A stretch of 37,462 nt of DNA from a virus. The stretch lies in the IMG/VR virus record IMGVR_UViG_3300044633_000534, positions 1 to 37,462 of that record. The stretch is one strand, 5' to 3'. The notes beneath the pieces are model-generated. The model was given only the letters and a program-made list of their open reading frames with translations, was not told where the DNA came from and ran no database searches. Positions 4,100 through 16,071 of this stretch are shown one piece after another. A program made the position numbers and the translations under genes. Position 1 is the first letter of the stretch, and every line of letters starts with the position of its first letter.

Positions 4100-4696
4100 A
4101 TGAGATACCTATTTTTATTCCTTCCCTTGTTTTCATTTGCGCAAGACGTCGTAAAAGACACGGTGTATATCCAAAAGCAAGGAAACATTTATTACATCAT
4201 TCAGCAGACTACTTTGTCTGATAGCACAGTCACAGGCTCAAAGCAAATCTTAGGAGATAGTGCAACAGCCATTCAAAGCCTTGTTACCGATGCCGAAAGG
4301 CAAAGCAACACGATTGCCATTCATGCAAAGCCTATTATTACTAAGGCTAAATCAGTACAAAGGATTAATTATTACAATGATTTACACGTTCAAATAAGCG
4401 GCAAGCCTGTTTATTTTACAACGGCACAAAGAGACACGGCAAAGTTTATCGGTAATTGGAAGTTAAATTTTAACGGTGAAATTATTGATGGAGTAATTCA
4501 ATTAAACAGCAATAAGCGTTTAATCTTTAACCCAGACAACGGCAAGGTTTACACAATTTCAACCAATCTACTTTTATCTACTTTTACCAATCAAGTTTCC
4601 TTTGCATTTAATGGCATTAAATACGACTTGTATAAATATGCTGAGGGCAAATTTGCCACGGTAGATGGTGATGTGAGGTTAATAAAACTTGAATAA
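4100..4696 (+). CDS. Secreted protein of unknown function
   Basis: The product has 198 residues. It begins with a short Sec-type signal peptide (charged MR, hydrophobic LFLFLPLF, likely cleavage after SFAQ). The mature part is polar, beta-rich in appearance and has no Cys pair, catalytic motif or lipobox that I can see. It starts two bases after the fibre stop and its own stop overlaps the holin start, so it is translationally linked to fibre and lysis genes. It could be a surface or periplasmic factor, or a fibre accessory. Family not recognised. Confidence 0.8.
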   Translation: MRYLFLFLPLFSFAQDVVKDTVYIQKQGNIYYIIQQTTLSDSTVTGSKQILGDSATAIQSLVTDAERQSNTIAIHAKPIITKAKSVQRINYYNDLHVQISGKPVYFTTAQRDTAKFIGNWKLNFNGEIIDGVIQLNSNKRLIFNPDNGKVYTISTNLLLSTFTNQVSFAFNGIKYDLYKYAEGKFATVDGDVRLIKLE

Positions 4697-5100
4697 TGAA
4701 AGCAGTTATACTAAAATTATTACATCAAAGCTATGAGTTCTTTGCCGTTGCATTGACTACTGGTTTTATCTTCTCATTTTTTGTTCCTATAAAAGGATTC
4801 CTTTTGTTTACCGTTGCCGTTGTTTTTGCAGACACAATCACAGGAATCAAGGCAGCAAAGAAGGAAGGTCAAAAGATAAGCAGCAAAGGATTGTATAGGA
4901 CTACGGAAAAGATAGTCGTTTATTTTGTAGCCATCCTTATTTTTGAAGGTGCAAAAAATACCTTTAATATACCTTTTCCAATTACCTACATGGTGGCAAT
5001 GATGATATCTGGAACAGAGTTATTTAGCGTTGCGGAAAACATCAAGCGGATAACTAACGTTGAATTAGGAACATTAATATCAAGATTTTTTAAAAAGTAA
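4696..5100 (+). CDS. Phage holin (Phage_holin_4/toxin-secretion lysis family)
   Basis: The protein has 134 residues and several hydrophobic segments (about 14-30, 33-47, 73-86 and 94-108). Family features are the DTITGIKAAKKEG motif after the second segment, then ISSKGLYRTTEKI. These match the phage holin family 4 (toxin secretion/lysis holin) as found in Firmicutes and Bacteroidota phages. It would form lesions in the inner membrane that release or activate the endolysin. The start overlaps the upstream stop by one base, and the amidase gene follows within 400 bp, giving a standard lysis cassette. Confidence 0.88.
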   Translation: MKAVILKLLHQSYEFFAVALTTGFIFSFFVPIKGFLLFTVAVVFADTITGIKAAKKEGQKISSKGLYRTTEKIVVYFVAILIFEGAKNTFNIPFPITYMVAMMISGTELFSVAENIKRITNVELGTLISRFFKK

Positions 5101-8951: not shown

Positions 8952-9262
8952 TTTATTTGTTTTTGTAAATCATTTAGTTCTGGATGTGTAAAATAAAACT
9001 CTGTCAGCATTGCAGCATTGCACATTAAGTGTGCAGAGTGCAAAAGTCCACTTTCATTGTCTATCATTTCACCAAGGCGCATGGCTTCCAGGTGACGCAT
9101 AGCGGAGGCAATCACAACAGAGAAGGGAAAGCCTTTCTCCCAATTACCAGCAGGATACTTCTCTAAACCTTGCGTCCAAACTTTGGCATACTCCCGTTGC
9201 GCAATGGCTGGGCAAAGGTCGTATCGTAGTTTGTTTTCATTGTATCGCATAGCTTCTTTCAT
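8948..9262 (-). CDS. dATP/dGTP diphosphohydrolase-like (DUF5664/dGTP_diPhyd_N)
   Basis: The product has 104 residues and fits the phage DUF5664 family annotated as dATP/dGTP diphosphohydrolase (MazG-like fold). Diagnostic elements are RYNENKLRYDLCP near the start, EKYPAGNWEKG (about 34-44), SAMRHLEAMRLGE (about 53-65) and ESGLLHSAHLMCNAAML (about 70-86). It probably hydrolyses purine dNTPs to dNMP and so shapes the dNTP pool. It overlaps both neighbours by four bases, forming a tight cassette with ThyX and dCTP deaminase. No purZ-like gene is present, so a modified-adenine genome is not supported. Confidence 0.8.
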   Translation of the reverse strand: MKEAMRYNENKLRYDLCPAIAQREYAKVWTQGLEKYPAGNWEKGFPFSVVIASAMRHLEAMRLGEMIDNESGLLHSAHLMCNAAMLTEFYFTHPELNDLQKQIK

Positions 9263-14840: not shown

Positions 14841-14871
14841 AAAAAAAGGTGCAGACATTACATCTGCACCT
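14841..14871 (-). terminator. Intrinsic terminator after ParB-like gene
   Basis: Arms AGGTGCAGA (14847-14855) and TCTGCACCT (14863-14871) are perfectly complementary, with the A run at 14841-14847 giving a U tract on the minus strand. It lies eight bases after the ParB-like stop and 18 bases before the replication-protein start, with no room for a normal promoter between. Confidence 0.78.
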
Positions 14872-14878
14872 AATTAAT

Positions 14879-15685
14879 TTATTTTGCTTGTAATACTATT
14901 CTTGTATGACCTTGATTTCTAAAATTATAAATGTGTTCAATATTAGCAATGATAACACTTAAATGACTGTTTTTTCTATACTCAGAAGGATAATTTAATG
15001 CCTTTTTAACAAAAATATTTAAATCAAAATCTTTGTTTGAAAGACAAGTTTTAATAGCTCTACAATAAGACATTGTATTAGATTCTGGTATAACTCCATT
15101 TATTTTTCTTAATGCCGTAAAAACATATTCTGCATTATTATTGACATTAAATTTATAAAGACCTTTTCTAATAAAATCTGAATTTACAATATTACTTCTT
15201 CTTAAATATAATTCACCGTTATTTGGTACAGTTGTTAATTCAGCACAAATCATTAATGAAAAATCTTTATTATCCTTATATAAATTATATAATAATAAAT
15301 AATCTTTAACATTTAAATCACAATAACTTTTAACATAATCAATCAAAGACCAATTAGATGCGTTAGCATTTAAAATTATAGCTGTATTTAAGTCGTAATT
15401 TTTTTCAATAATATAATATATCATTGATTTACTTTTTTTTGCAGCTTCCAATCTGTGTTGCCCATCTATAACTTCATAATTTTTGTTTACAATAATTGGC
15501 ATTTTTAGAAATCCATTTTCTTCAATAGATTTTACCAATCTTTCAACATGAAGTAAATTAATGTTCCTATTTCCTTCTAATATTTTAAAAACACTAAGGT
15601 CATAGGTAAAATAAACTTGTAAATCTTTTTGGCTCATCGCTGGTATTGCGTCCGCCAAAATTGGATTTAATTGTAAATTGTTCAT
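14879..15685 (-). CDS. ParB/Srx-superfamily N-terminal domain protein
   Basis: The product has 268 residues. Residues about 35-85 show the ParB N-terminal pattern: LLHVERLVKSIEENGFL, PIIVNKNYEVIDGQHRLEAAKK, with GQHR at 75-78. Here Gln-His replaces the usual Glu-Arg of ParB. The remaining 180 residues are helical and show no clear helix-turn-helix. Members of this superfamily act as CTP-dependent partition proteins, nucleases or regulators, and the phage version may act in replication or gene control. The gene is preceded within 23 bases by the candidate structured RNA and followed by a strong terminator, so it may be a monocistronic unit. Confidence 0.75.
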   Translation of the reverse strand: MNNLQLNPILADAIPAMSQKDLQVYFTYDLSVFKILEGNRNINLLHVERLVKSIEENGFLKMPIIVNKNYEVIDGQHRLEAAKKSKSMIYYIIEKNYDLNTAIILNANASNWSLIDYVKSYCDLNVKDYLLLYNLYKDNKDFSLMICAELTTVPNNGELYLRRSNIVNSDFIRKGLYKFNVNNNAEYVFTALRKINGVIPESNTMSYCRAIKTCLSNKDFDLNIFVKKALNYPSEYRKNSHLSVIIANIEHIYNFRNQGHTRIVLQAK

Positions 15686-15707: not shown

Positions 15708-15800
15708 AAAAAAAGCCCAGTAAGTGGACTTTACTGGGCAGGGTTAAGAACAATATTGTATTGTTCTTTTCCTTTAAGCGATGTCCACTCCGTTTAAAGG
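15708..15800 (-). ncRNA. Candidate structured small RNA or riboswitch-like leader
   Basis: The minus strand encodes three hairpins in about 93 nt. P1 has arms CCTTTAA (15800-15794) and TTAAAGG (15777-15771). P2 has arms AAGAACAATA (15768-15759) and TATTGTTCTT (15755-15746) with a 3-base loop. P3 has arms GCCCAGTAA (15739-15731) and TTACTGGGC (15723-15715), followed by seven U (15714-15708), an intrinsic terminator. The P1 loop contains AGTGGAC, which is complementary to GTCCACT in the P3 loop and closing base. A -7 box ends five bases upstream. The P3 tail is 22 bases before the ParB-like start, so it could be a free small RNA or an attenuator for that gene. Confidence 0.65.
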
Positions 15801-15805
15801 ATATG

Positions 15806-15813
15806 CAAAGATA
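15806..15813 (-). promoter_or_regulatory. -7 box of the small RNA
   Basis: The minus strand reads TATCTTTG, a TAnnTTTG match, with the first base of the P1 hairpin six bases downstream, close to the expected start of transcription. No clear TTG is seen at the -33 position. Confidence 0.55.
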
Positions 15814-15831
15814 ATATATTTTTTATATAAT

Positions 15832-16071
15832 CTAATTCTTTTCCGAAATACTTTTAATATTTTCATTCCTATCCTCGATAAAGCCACTGCCATGACTACC
15901 TCCCACTATCTTTAGATACTGGTTCTCAACACTGGCACTATTAATAATCACCTGGGCAACATCTGCCACAACCTTGGCCTTGGCAATGTCATAGGTGCTG
16001 TCGGGATCGGTCAGTTCTTCAAGAACGGAGAAGAGGTGGTTGCGGAGGTCGCTGATTTTGTTTTTCATCAT
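15832..16071 (-). CDS. Conserved phage protein of unknown function (79 residues)
   Basis: The product has 79 residues. It begins with the pattern KISDLRNHLFSVLEELTD, then AKVVADVAQVIINSASVE, which I recognise from small conserved proteins in many phage early regions whose function is not known. The tail is polar. Here it lies upstream of the small RNA promoter. It could be a helical dimer, judged from the heptad-like first half. Confidence 0.75.
   Translation of the reverse strand: MMKNKISDLRNHLFSVLEELTDPDSTYDIAKAKVVADVAQVIINSASVENQYLKIVGGSHGSGFIEDRNENIKSISEKN

Follow-up and report, generated by a model that had tools for sequence, protein, structure and literature searches.

Covarying loops in a previously undescribed RNA family ahead of early and replication genes of uncultured phages: a candidate kissing-loop attenuator

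The window, the whole 37,462-nt stretch of viral DNA analysed here (IMG/VR record IMGVR_UViG_3300044633_000534), carries on its minus strand a gene for a ParB-like protein preceded by a compact structured RNA element. The phage hosts are probably Bacteroidota, based on the promoter type and on the Flavobacterium-phage relatives of the ParB-like protein. A tail-fibre-like repetitive frame with the same repeat (TSSMLTPYFRDNDTTSLNLTSRF) is present at both contig ends (34456 to 37461 and 59 to 2101, both on the plus strand), which suggests that the two frames are one gene split by the cut and that the genome is circular or circularly permuted. The features at the locus are the following.

15832 to 16071, minus strand: upstream gene of 79 aa, codirectional, with its stop just ahead of the RNA promoter (phrog_2044, E 4e-15)
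15806 to 15813, minus strand: -7 box TATCTTTG, flavobacterial sigma-A type TAnnTTTG (sequence)
about 15801, minus strand: predicted transcription start, one base ahead of P1
15708 to 15801, minus strand: predicted RNA of about 94 nt, structured throughout as P1, P2 and terminator (covariance model and fold)
15771 to 15800, minus strand: hairpin P1, its loop carrying the word AGTGGAC (fold and compensatory changes in the family)
15783 to 15789, minus strand: P1 loop word AGTGGAC, 5' side of the loop-loop helix (family covariation)
15746 to 15768, minus strand: hairpin P2 with a GAACAA...TTGTTC core (fold and alignment)
15715 to 15739, minus strand: intrinsic terminator hairpin of 9 bp, mismatch-free (fold; 8 of the 9 pairs with compensatory changes in the family)
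15723 to 15729, minus strand: terminator loop word GTCCACT, 3' side of the loop-loop helix (family covariation)
15708 to 15714, minus strand: terminator U-run, U7 (sequence)
14879 to 15685, minus strand: gene for the ParB-like protein, 268 aa, downstream of the RNA (PHROG 12305, E 2.7e-25; Pfam ParB_N weak)
14847 to 14871, minus strand: plain intrinsic terminator separating the ParB-like gene from the DnaD-like gene (also kept in relatives, with compensatory changes in the stem)

The phrog_2044 name, "RNA polymerase beta subunit," looks doubtful for a gene of 79 aa. Because the -7 box of Flavobacterium psychrophilum spans -12 to -5 (PMC9723704), we placed the RNA start at about 15801. A first-pass annotation had described the -7 box, P1, P2 and the 9-bp terminator with U7, and sequence and fold place all of them where it had put them. 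As it had also noted, AGTGGAC (15789 to 15783) and GTCCACT (15729 to 15723), the last base of which is the stem-closing base of the terminator, are exact complements, and exactly 22 nt separate the U-run from the ParB-like ATG at 15685. The window RNA folds at -36.2 kcal/mol compared to -17.8 +/- 3.0 kcal/mol for shuffles (z -6.15, 0/200), and the predicted 94-nt transcript alone has an MFE of -32.5 kcal/mol (z -5.9). With about 18 possible 7-mer comparisons, we estimate that a 7-nt loop match would occur by chance in roughly 1 in 1,000 cases, and on this estimate the window alone is only suggestive. A covariance model detects a single copy in the window (15806 to 15708, 77.6 bits, E 1.3e-13, with the E values of the model being rough). 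The minus-strand transcript contains, at 9043 to 9053, 11 nt identical to the complement of the terminator loop (AAAGTCCACTT), where chance would give about 0.07 such matches; this is the sole trans-target candidate inside the window. We rejected the RNA as a replication origin, as the GC skew turns near 18 to 19.5 kb, at the gene-orientation switch and away from the RNA.

Judged by their sequences, the relatives of the element settle with certainty that it is real. We used two protein-led samples, both selected blind to the RNA. The first comprised 11 viral contigs with a relative of the ParB-like protein (56 to 68% identity); 11/11 have the RNA layout upstream, and the loop match is present in 11/11, mostly in letters unlike those of the window, with loop pairs such as GTGGAGAC/GTCTCCAC, GTGATAG/CTATCAC, GTAGCAG/CTGCTAC, GTCGAGC/GCTCGAC and CTAGACA/TGTCTAG. 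The second comprised relatives of the replication initiator of contig L113, and 14/14 loci with the N-terminus (full-length) carry the RNA; six of these were read directly, and the other eight contigs were seen in the covariance-model search. Further copies came from DNA patterns on P1 and P2 that ignored the loop word and from one that fixed only CGGAGT ahead of it, and for one type of P1/P2 pattern every match with the P1-P2-terminator layout has the loop match. Covariance model R1 identified 82 copies with >70 bits in the first 68 sources. Altogether, 106 copies were aligned, 76 of them distinct, and we give distinct counts because many contigs are near-duplicates; alignment A6 holds 87 copies, 76 of them distinct. 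Contig L014 was set aside as a relative, as its -7 box comes after the GTGGAC word and a P1 of the kind found in the RNA family is absent. At 4645 to 4725, it has a leader-like terminator, flanked by a tRNA-like stretch and by a gene starting MAKDPRFNFYVDNWIGG, with a -7-like box inside, which is possibly an unrelated attenuator of a similar kind.

The RNA family is previously undescribed and was found here only in uncultured viral contigs. All copies came from IMG/VR contigs in a search that also covered named phages, a GTDB pattern scan and 296 Bacteroidota genomes. In named phages, blastn with the window and two other copies gave no RNA match beyond short low-score pieces; none of the 32 matches of the GTDB pattern scan has the fold; and the covariance model gave 0/296 hits in the Bacteroidota genomes, a weak result obtained with strict filters and without a positive control. 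In the lillamy phage, only 59 nt separate the ParB homologue from the gene before it, which leaves no space for the RNA.

The alignment was fitted to a three-stem model without loop-loop pairing, and the loop-loop counts are therefore not circular. The P1 loop and the terminator loop are exactly complementary over at least 6 nt in 106/106 copies and over at least 7 nt in 74 of the 76 distinct copies; the P1 loop is 10 nt long in 69/76 and the terminator loop 8 nt in 56/76. In A6, the four helices are 96.6% paired, compared to 79.4% when shuffled and 36 to 48% for slid structures. For the loop-loop helix, 98.3% of the cells are paired (515 Watson-Crick, 2 G-U and 9 other of 526), and all 7 pairs change on both sides. 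This helix is nearly pure Watson-Crick, whereas G-U pairs make up 6 to 10% in P1, P2 and the terminator, where they fit the minus strand as the RNA strand. In alignment A4, the loop-loop helix alone is 98.0% paired, with 104 double-change cells compared to 31 in shuffles (0/500), and its slid versions are 25 to 44% paired. Shuffles leave relatedness in; counting changes along a tree from which the loop-word columns were left out removes it in part. On this tree, the loop words turn over completely, with at least 20 words and at least 27 whole-word changes. Along its branches, the 5' side changed 54 times and the 3' side also 54 times, with 59 changes of pair state, and the changes on the two loop sides are thus nearly all coupled. 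When conserved column helices of at least 4 pairs were sought de novo, only P1, P2, the terminator and the loop-loop helix reached at least 7 pairs.

At least six Watson-Crick pairs, kept by compensatory change, hence join two hairpin loops, as in a kissing-loop RNA. The first-pass annotation had proposed compensation between the two loops as the test of their pairing, and both sides indeed change together in the homologues. The family provides unusually clean evidence for a loop-loop tertiary contact, one that involves an intrinsic terminator.

Across the family, the sequence upstream of the promoter varies, and in the copies listed a -7-type box lies at a near-fixed distance ahead of P1. An open-frame ATG follows the U-run after 1 to 26 nt (median 7), and there is therefore no room for a promoter in between. 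The order of promoter, intrinsic terminator and gene without an intervening promoter, as in an attenuator, is the same across the family. The proteins encoded downstream fall into at least nine unrelated groups and include ParB-like proteins, ParB-methylase proteins, MT-A70, N6/N4 and Dam methyltransferases, HNH endonucleases, and HTH proteins of the replication module. The copies form an RNA family with four helices, including the loop-loop helix, a conserved -7 box and a fixed place before early and replication genes. Thus, the annotated phage structured RNA with its own -7 box, here conserved, a terminator end and a leader position ahead of a gene is borne out. Its suggested role as an attenuator of the ParB-like gene holds for the leader position and fails for the specificity, as genes of at least nine unrelated families follow the RNA.

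Many contigs have two copies, at two gene heads 1.3 to 2.5 kb apart, nearly always with different words; the exception is G022, with nearly the same word in its two copies (GTGGACA and GTGGACGC). Replication initiators that are 84 to 91% identical to the L113 protein have RNAs with the words GTGGACGC, GTAGCAG and GTAGGAG. Because these orthologous initiators carry three words, the word evolves faster than the gene. In a sub-group (L194 5484 to 5584, L196 14030 to 14130, L197 5889 to 5989, L212 4461 to 4561 and L214 7742 to 7842), the loop match GTGCAGC/GCTGCAC is kept and the U-run is broken (GTTCTCATTTTT); these copies were overlooked by the scanner solely because of the broken U-run. They may indicate that the kissing fold itself matters beyond termination.

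A terminator near a start codon is not unique to the RNA, as the plain terminator at 14871 to 14847 is equally close in the same phages: its U-run lies about 12 nt before the next ATG (14829), with no P1 or P2 in front. Here, the scanner reports a kissing partner only in L002 and L069, a 6-nt AT-only match. Terminators at this locus thus do not have the loop match as a general feature. The location of the plain terminator inside an early operon suggests that these phages read through terminators there.

We compared the RNA with known classes. No family in Rfam 15 matches the window RNA at the gathering score; the window has 33.8 bits against the PyrR site RF00515, below the gathering score of 54, and this likeness is unrepeated in other copies. 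At nine further loci searched against Rfam at E 0.1, the RNA was unmatched, and the single match was a tRNA elsewhere in L202. The first-pass annotation had called the element riboswitch-like; a ligand pocket is unsupported by the columns conserved at ≥90%, which are stem or loop-helix pairs and the U-run, with no conserved unpaired core. In addition, the ParB-like, methyltransferase, HNH and HTH replication genes share no metabolite-linked pathway as would be expected for a riboswitch. In a de novo helix search for an antiterminator, no competing helix covaries beyond one pair, and the only competing conserved helix, between the 3' arm of P2 and the 5' arm of the terminator, has 5 weak pairs and no double changes. 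Some attenuators, driven by a factor or by RNA, lack a mutually exclusive antiterminator. A leader-peptide attenuator was rejected: an ATG precedes P2 in some copies and is absent in the window, L007 and the second copy of L180, the letters around it follow the P2 stem, and the short leader ORF is not conserved. Antisense copy control of the plasmid type was also rejected, as both loops are on the same strand and the stem G-U pairs fit a minus-strand RNA.

Based on these sequence data, we propose that the element is a cis-acting leader RNA that functions as a kissing-loop attenuator, and we give this reading a probability of roughly 50%. It is the simplest reading because promoter, fold, terminator and gene follow each other in this order without room for a second promoter. 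Transcription would begin about one base ahead of P1. P1 would fold first, and its loop would catch the loop of the emerging terminator hairpin in the same molecule via 6 to 9 Watson-Crick pairs. Kissing would link the terminator with the 5' end of the molecule and in this way set how often polymerase stops; it could either hold the terminator together or delay its closure. Most rounds of transcription would yield a stable RNA of about 94 nt, and the downstream gene would be expressed only from polymerases that pass the terminator, presumably in response to a trigger for read-through. The linkers total 7 to 11 nt. By rough geometry, 26 stacked pairs need about 73 Å, and 9 to 10 linker nt plus the P2 base reach about 77 Å; intramolecular kissing is just allowed by this rough estimate. 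The position of the RNA close to the gene speaks for a leader from which free RNA is released as well. If the contact sets termination, then the element would be a compact, swappable switch with its specificity in about 7 letters that outpace the evolution of the controlled genes. Two questions thereby become testable: what influence a tertiary contact has on intrinsic termination, and what drives phages to alter a private RNA word again and again.

A different role for the words is conceivable, and we regard it as unlikely: the released RNA would kiss nascent or finished copies with the same word, so that copy number or a resident phage would silence the leader, and words would diverge under pressure against cross-talk, a situation known from plasmid incompatibility and from the immunity of phage P4. 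Trans action between same-word copies would explain the changing words, which evolve much more quickly than the gene next to them (with at least 27 word changes) and nearly always differ between the copies of two-copy phages; the near absence of G-U pairs from the kissing helix also agrees with it, and P4 CI RNA provides a precedent by halting transcription of replication genes through pairing within the same transcript (PMC4825925). However, a partner for each loop is already present within the same molecule, G022 has nearly the same word twice, and the first- and second-position words come from largely different sets, which makes the difference within a genome weak evidence. An extension of this idea, a phage-encoded self-specific RNA identity system in which same-word recognition in trans, dosage feedback on replication genes and exclusion of same-word phages drive word diversification, is distinctly unlikely.

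That the RNA is a stable structured small RNA acting elsewhere, as a protein decoy or on a host target, with a terminator that merely ends it and a loop contact that protects it from nucleases, appears rather unlikely. Its compactness from the start of P1 to the end of the terminator, with both ends tied by the contact, and the maintenance of the fold even with a poor U-run would suit such a molecule; yet it would need neither a fixed place before many unrelated start codons nor two gene heads per genome, and the unconserved loop letters argue against a fixed target sequence recognised through the loops.

We consider it improbable that the contact works as a cis antiterminator, in which P1 would hold the terminator loop before the 3' arm appears, delay closure and raise read-through. 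The order of synthesis (P1, terminator loop and 3' arm) is compatible with this, although the anatomy fits equally well with the reverse, and the plain terminators elsewhere in the operon suggest that the phages must read through terminators. However, compensatory changes keep the terminator stem fully intact, and no covariation is seen for any other pairing of its arms. Finally, a chance fold or a plain terminator with functionless loops is refuted by the covariation, as a single 7-nt match has an estimated frequency of about one per thousand such cases but 106/106 aligned copies keep the match while its letters change.

Among known systems, the ESAS elements of cluster K mycobacteriophages are inverted repeats in the DNA that act as promoters. 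The RNA resembles them in that a single phage has the same regulatory element before the start codons of several genes unrelated to each other, and differs in being an RNA fold that ends in a terminator and has covarying loops. Riboswitch and protein-binding leaders, such as the PyrR site RF00515, share the order of promoter, folded domain, terminator and gene; unlike such leaders, the RNA scores below the gathering threshold and has no conserved unpaired core. The pT181 and ColE1 RNAI/RNAII systems use kissing of 7-nt loops with changing, specificity-setting words in control near replication genes, and pT181 uses attenuation by an intrinsic terminator. There, the partner is on the opposite DNA strand and complementarity is automatic, whereas the two loops of the RNA share one strand, so that a change in one has to be matched in the other. 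The CI RNA and seqA-seqC immunity of phage P4 and IsrK of Gifsy-1 are similar in that a phage RNA heads early or replication genes, complementary segments occur in one transcript and transcription stops before the genes (PMC4825925). In the case of IsrK, read-through yields a longer mRNA (PMC4825925). P4 CI RNA is a separate processed RNA that pairs with sites upstream and downstream (PMC4825925), whereas here a single RNA of about 94 nt has both complementary loops, one in its 5' hairpin and one in its intrinsic terminator. By analogy, the P4 CI RNA system would offer the nearest known logic for action in trans between copies with the same word.
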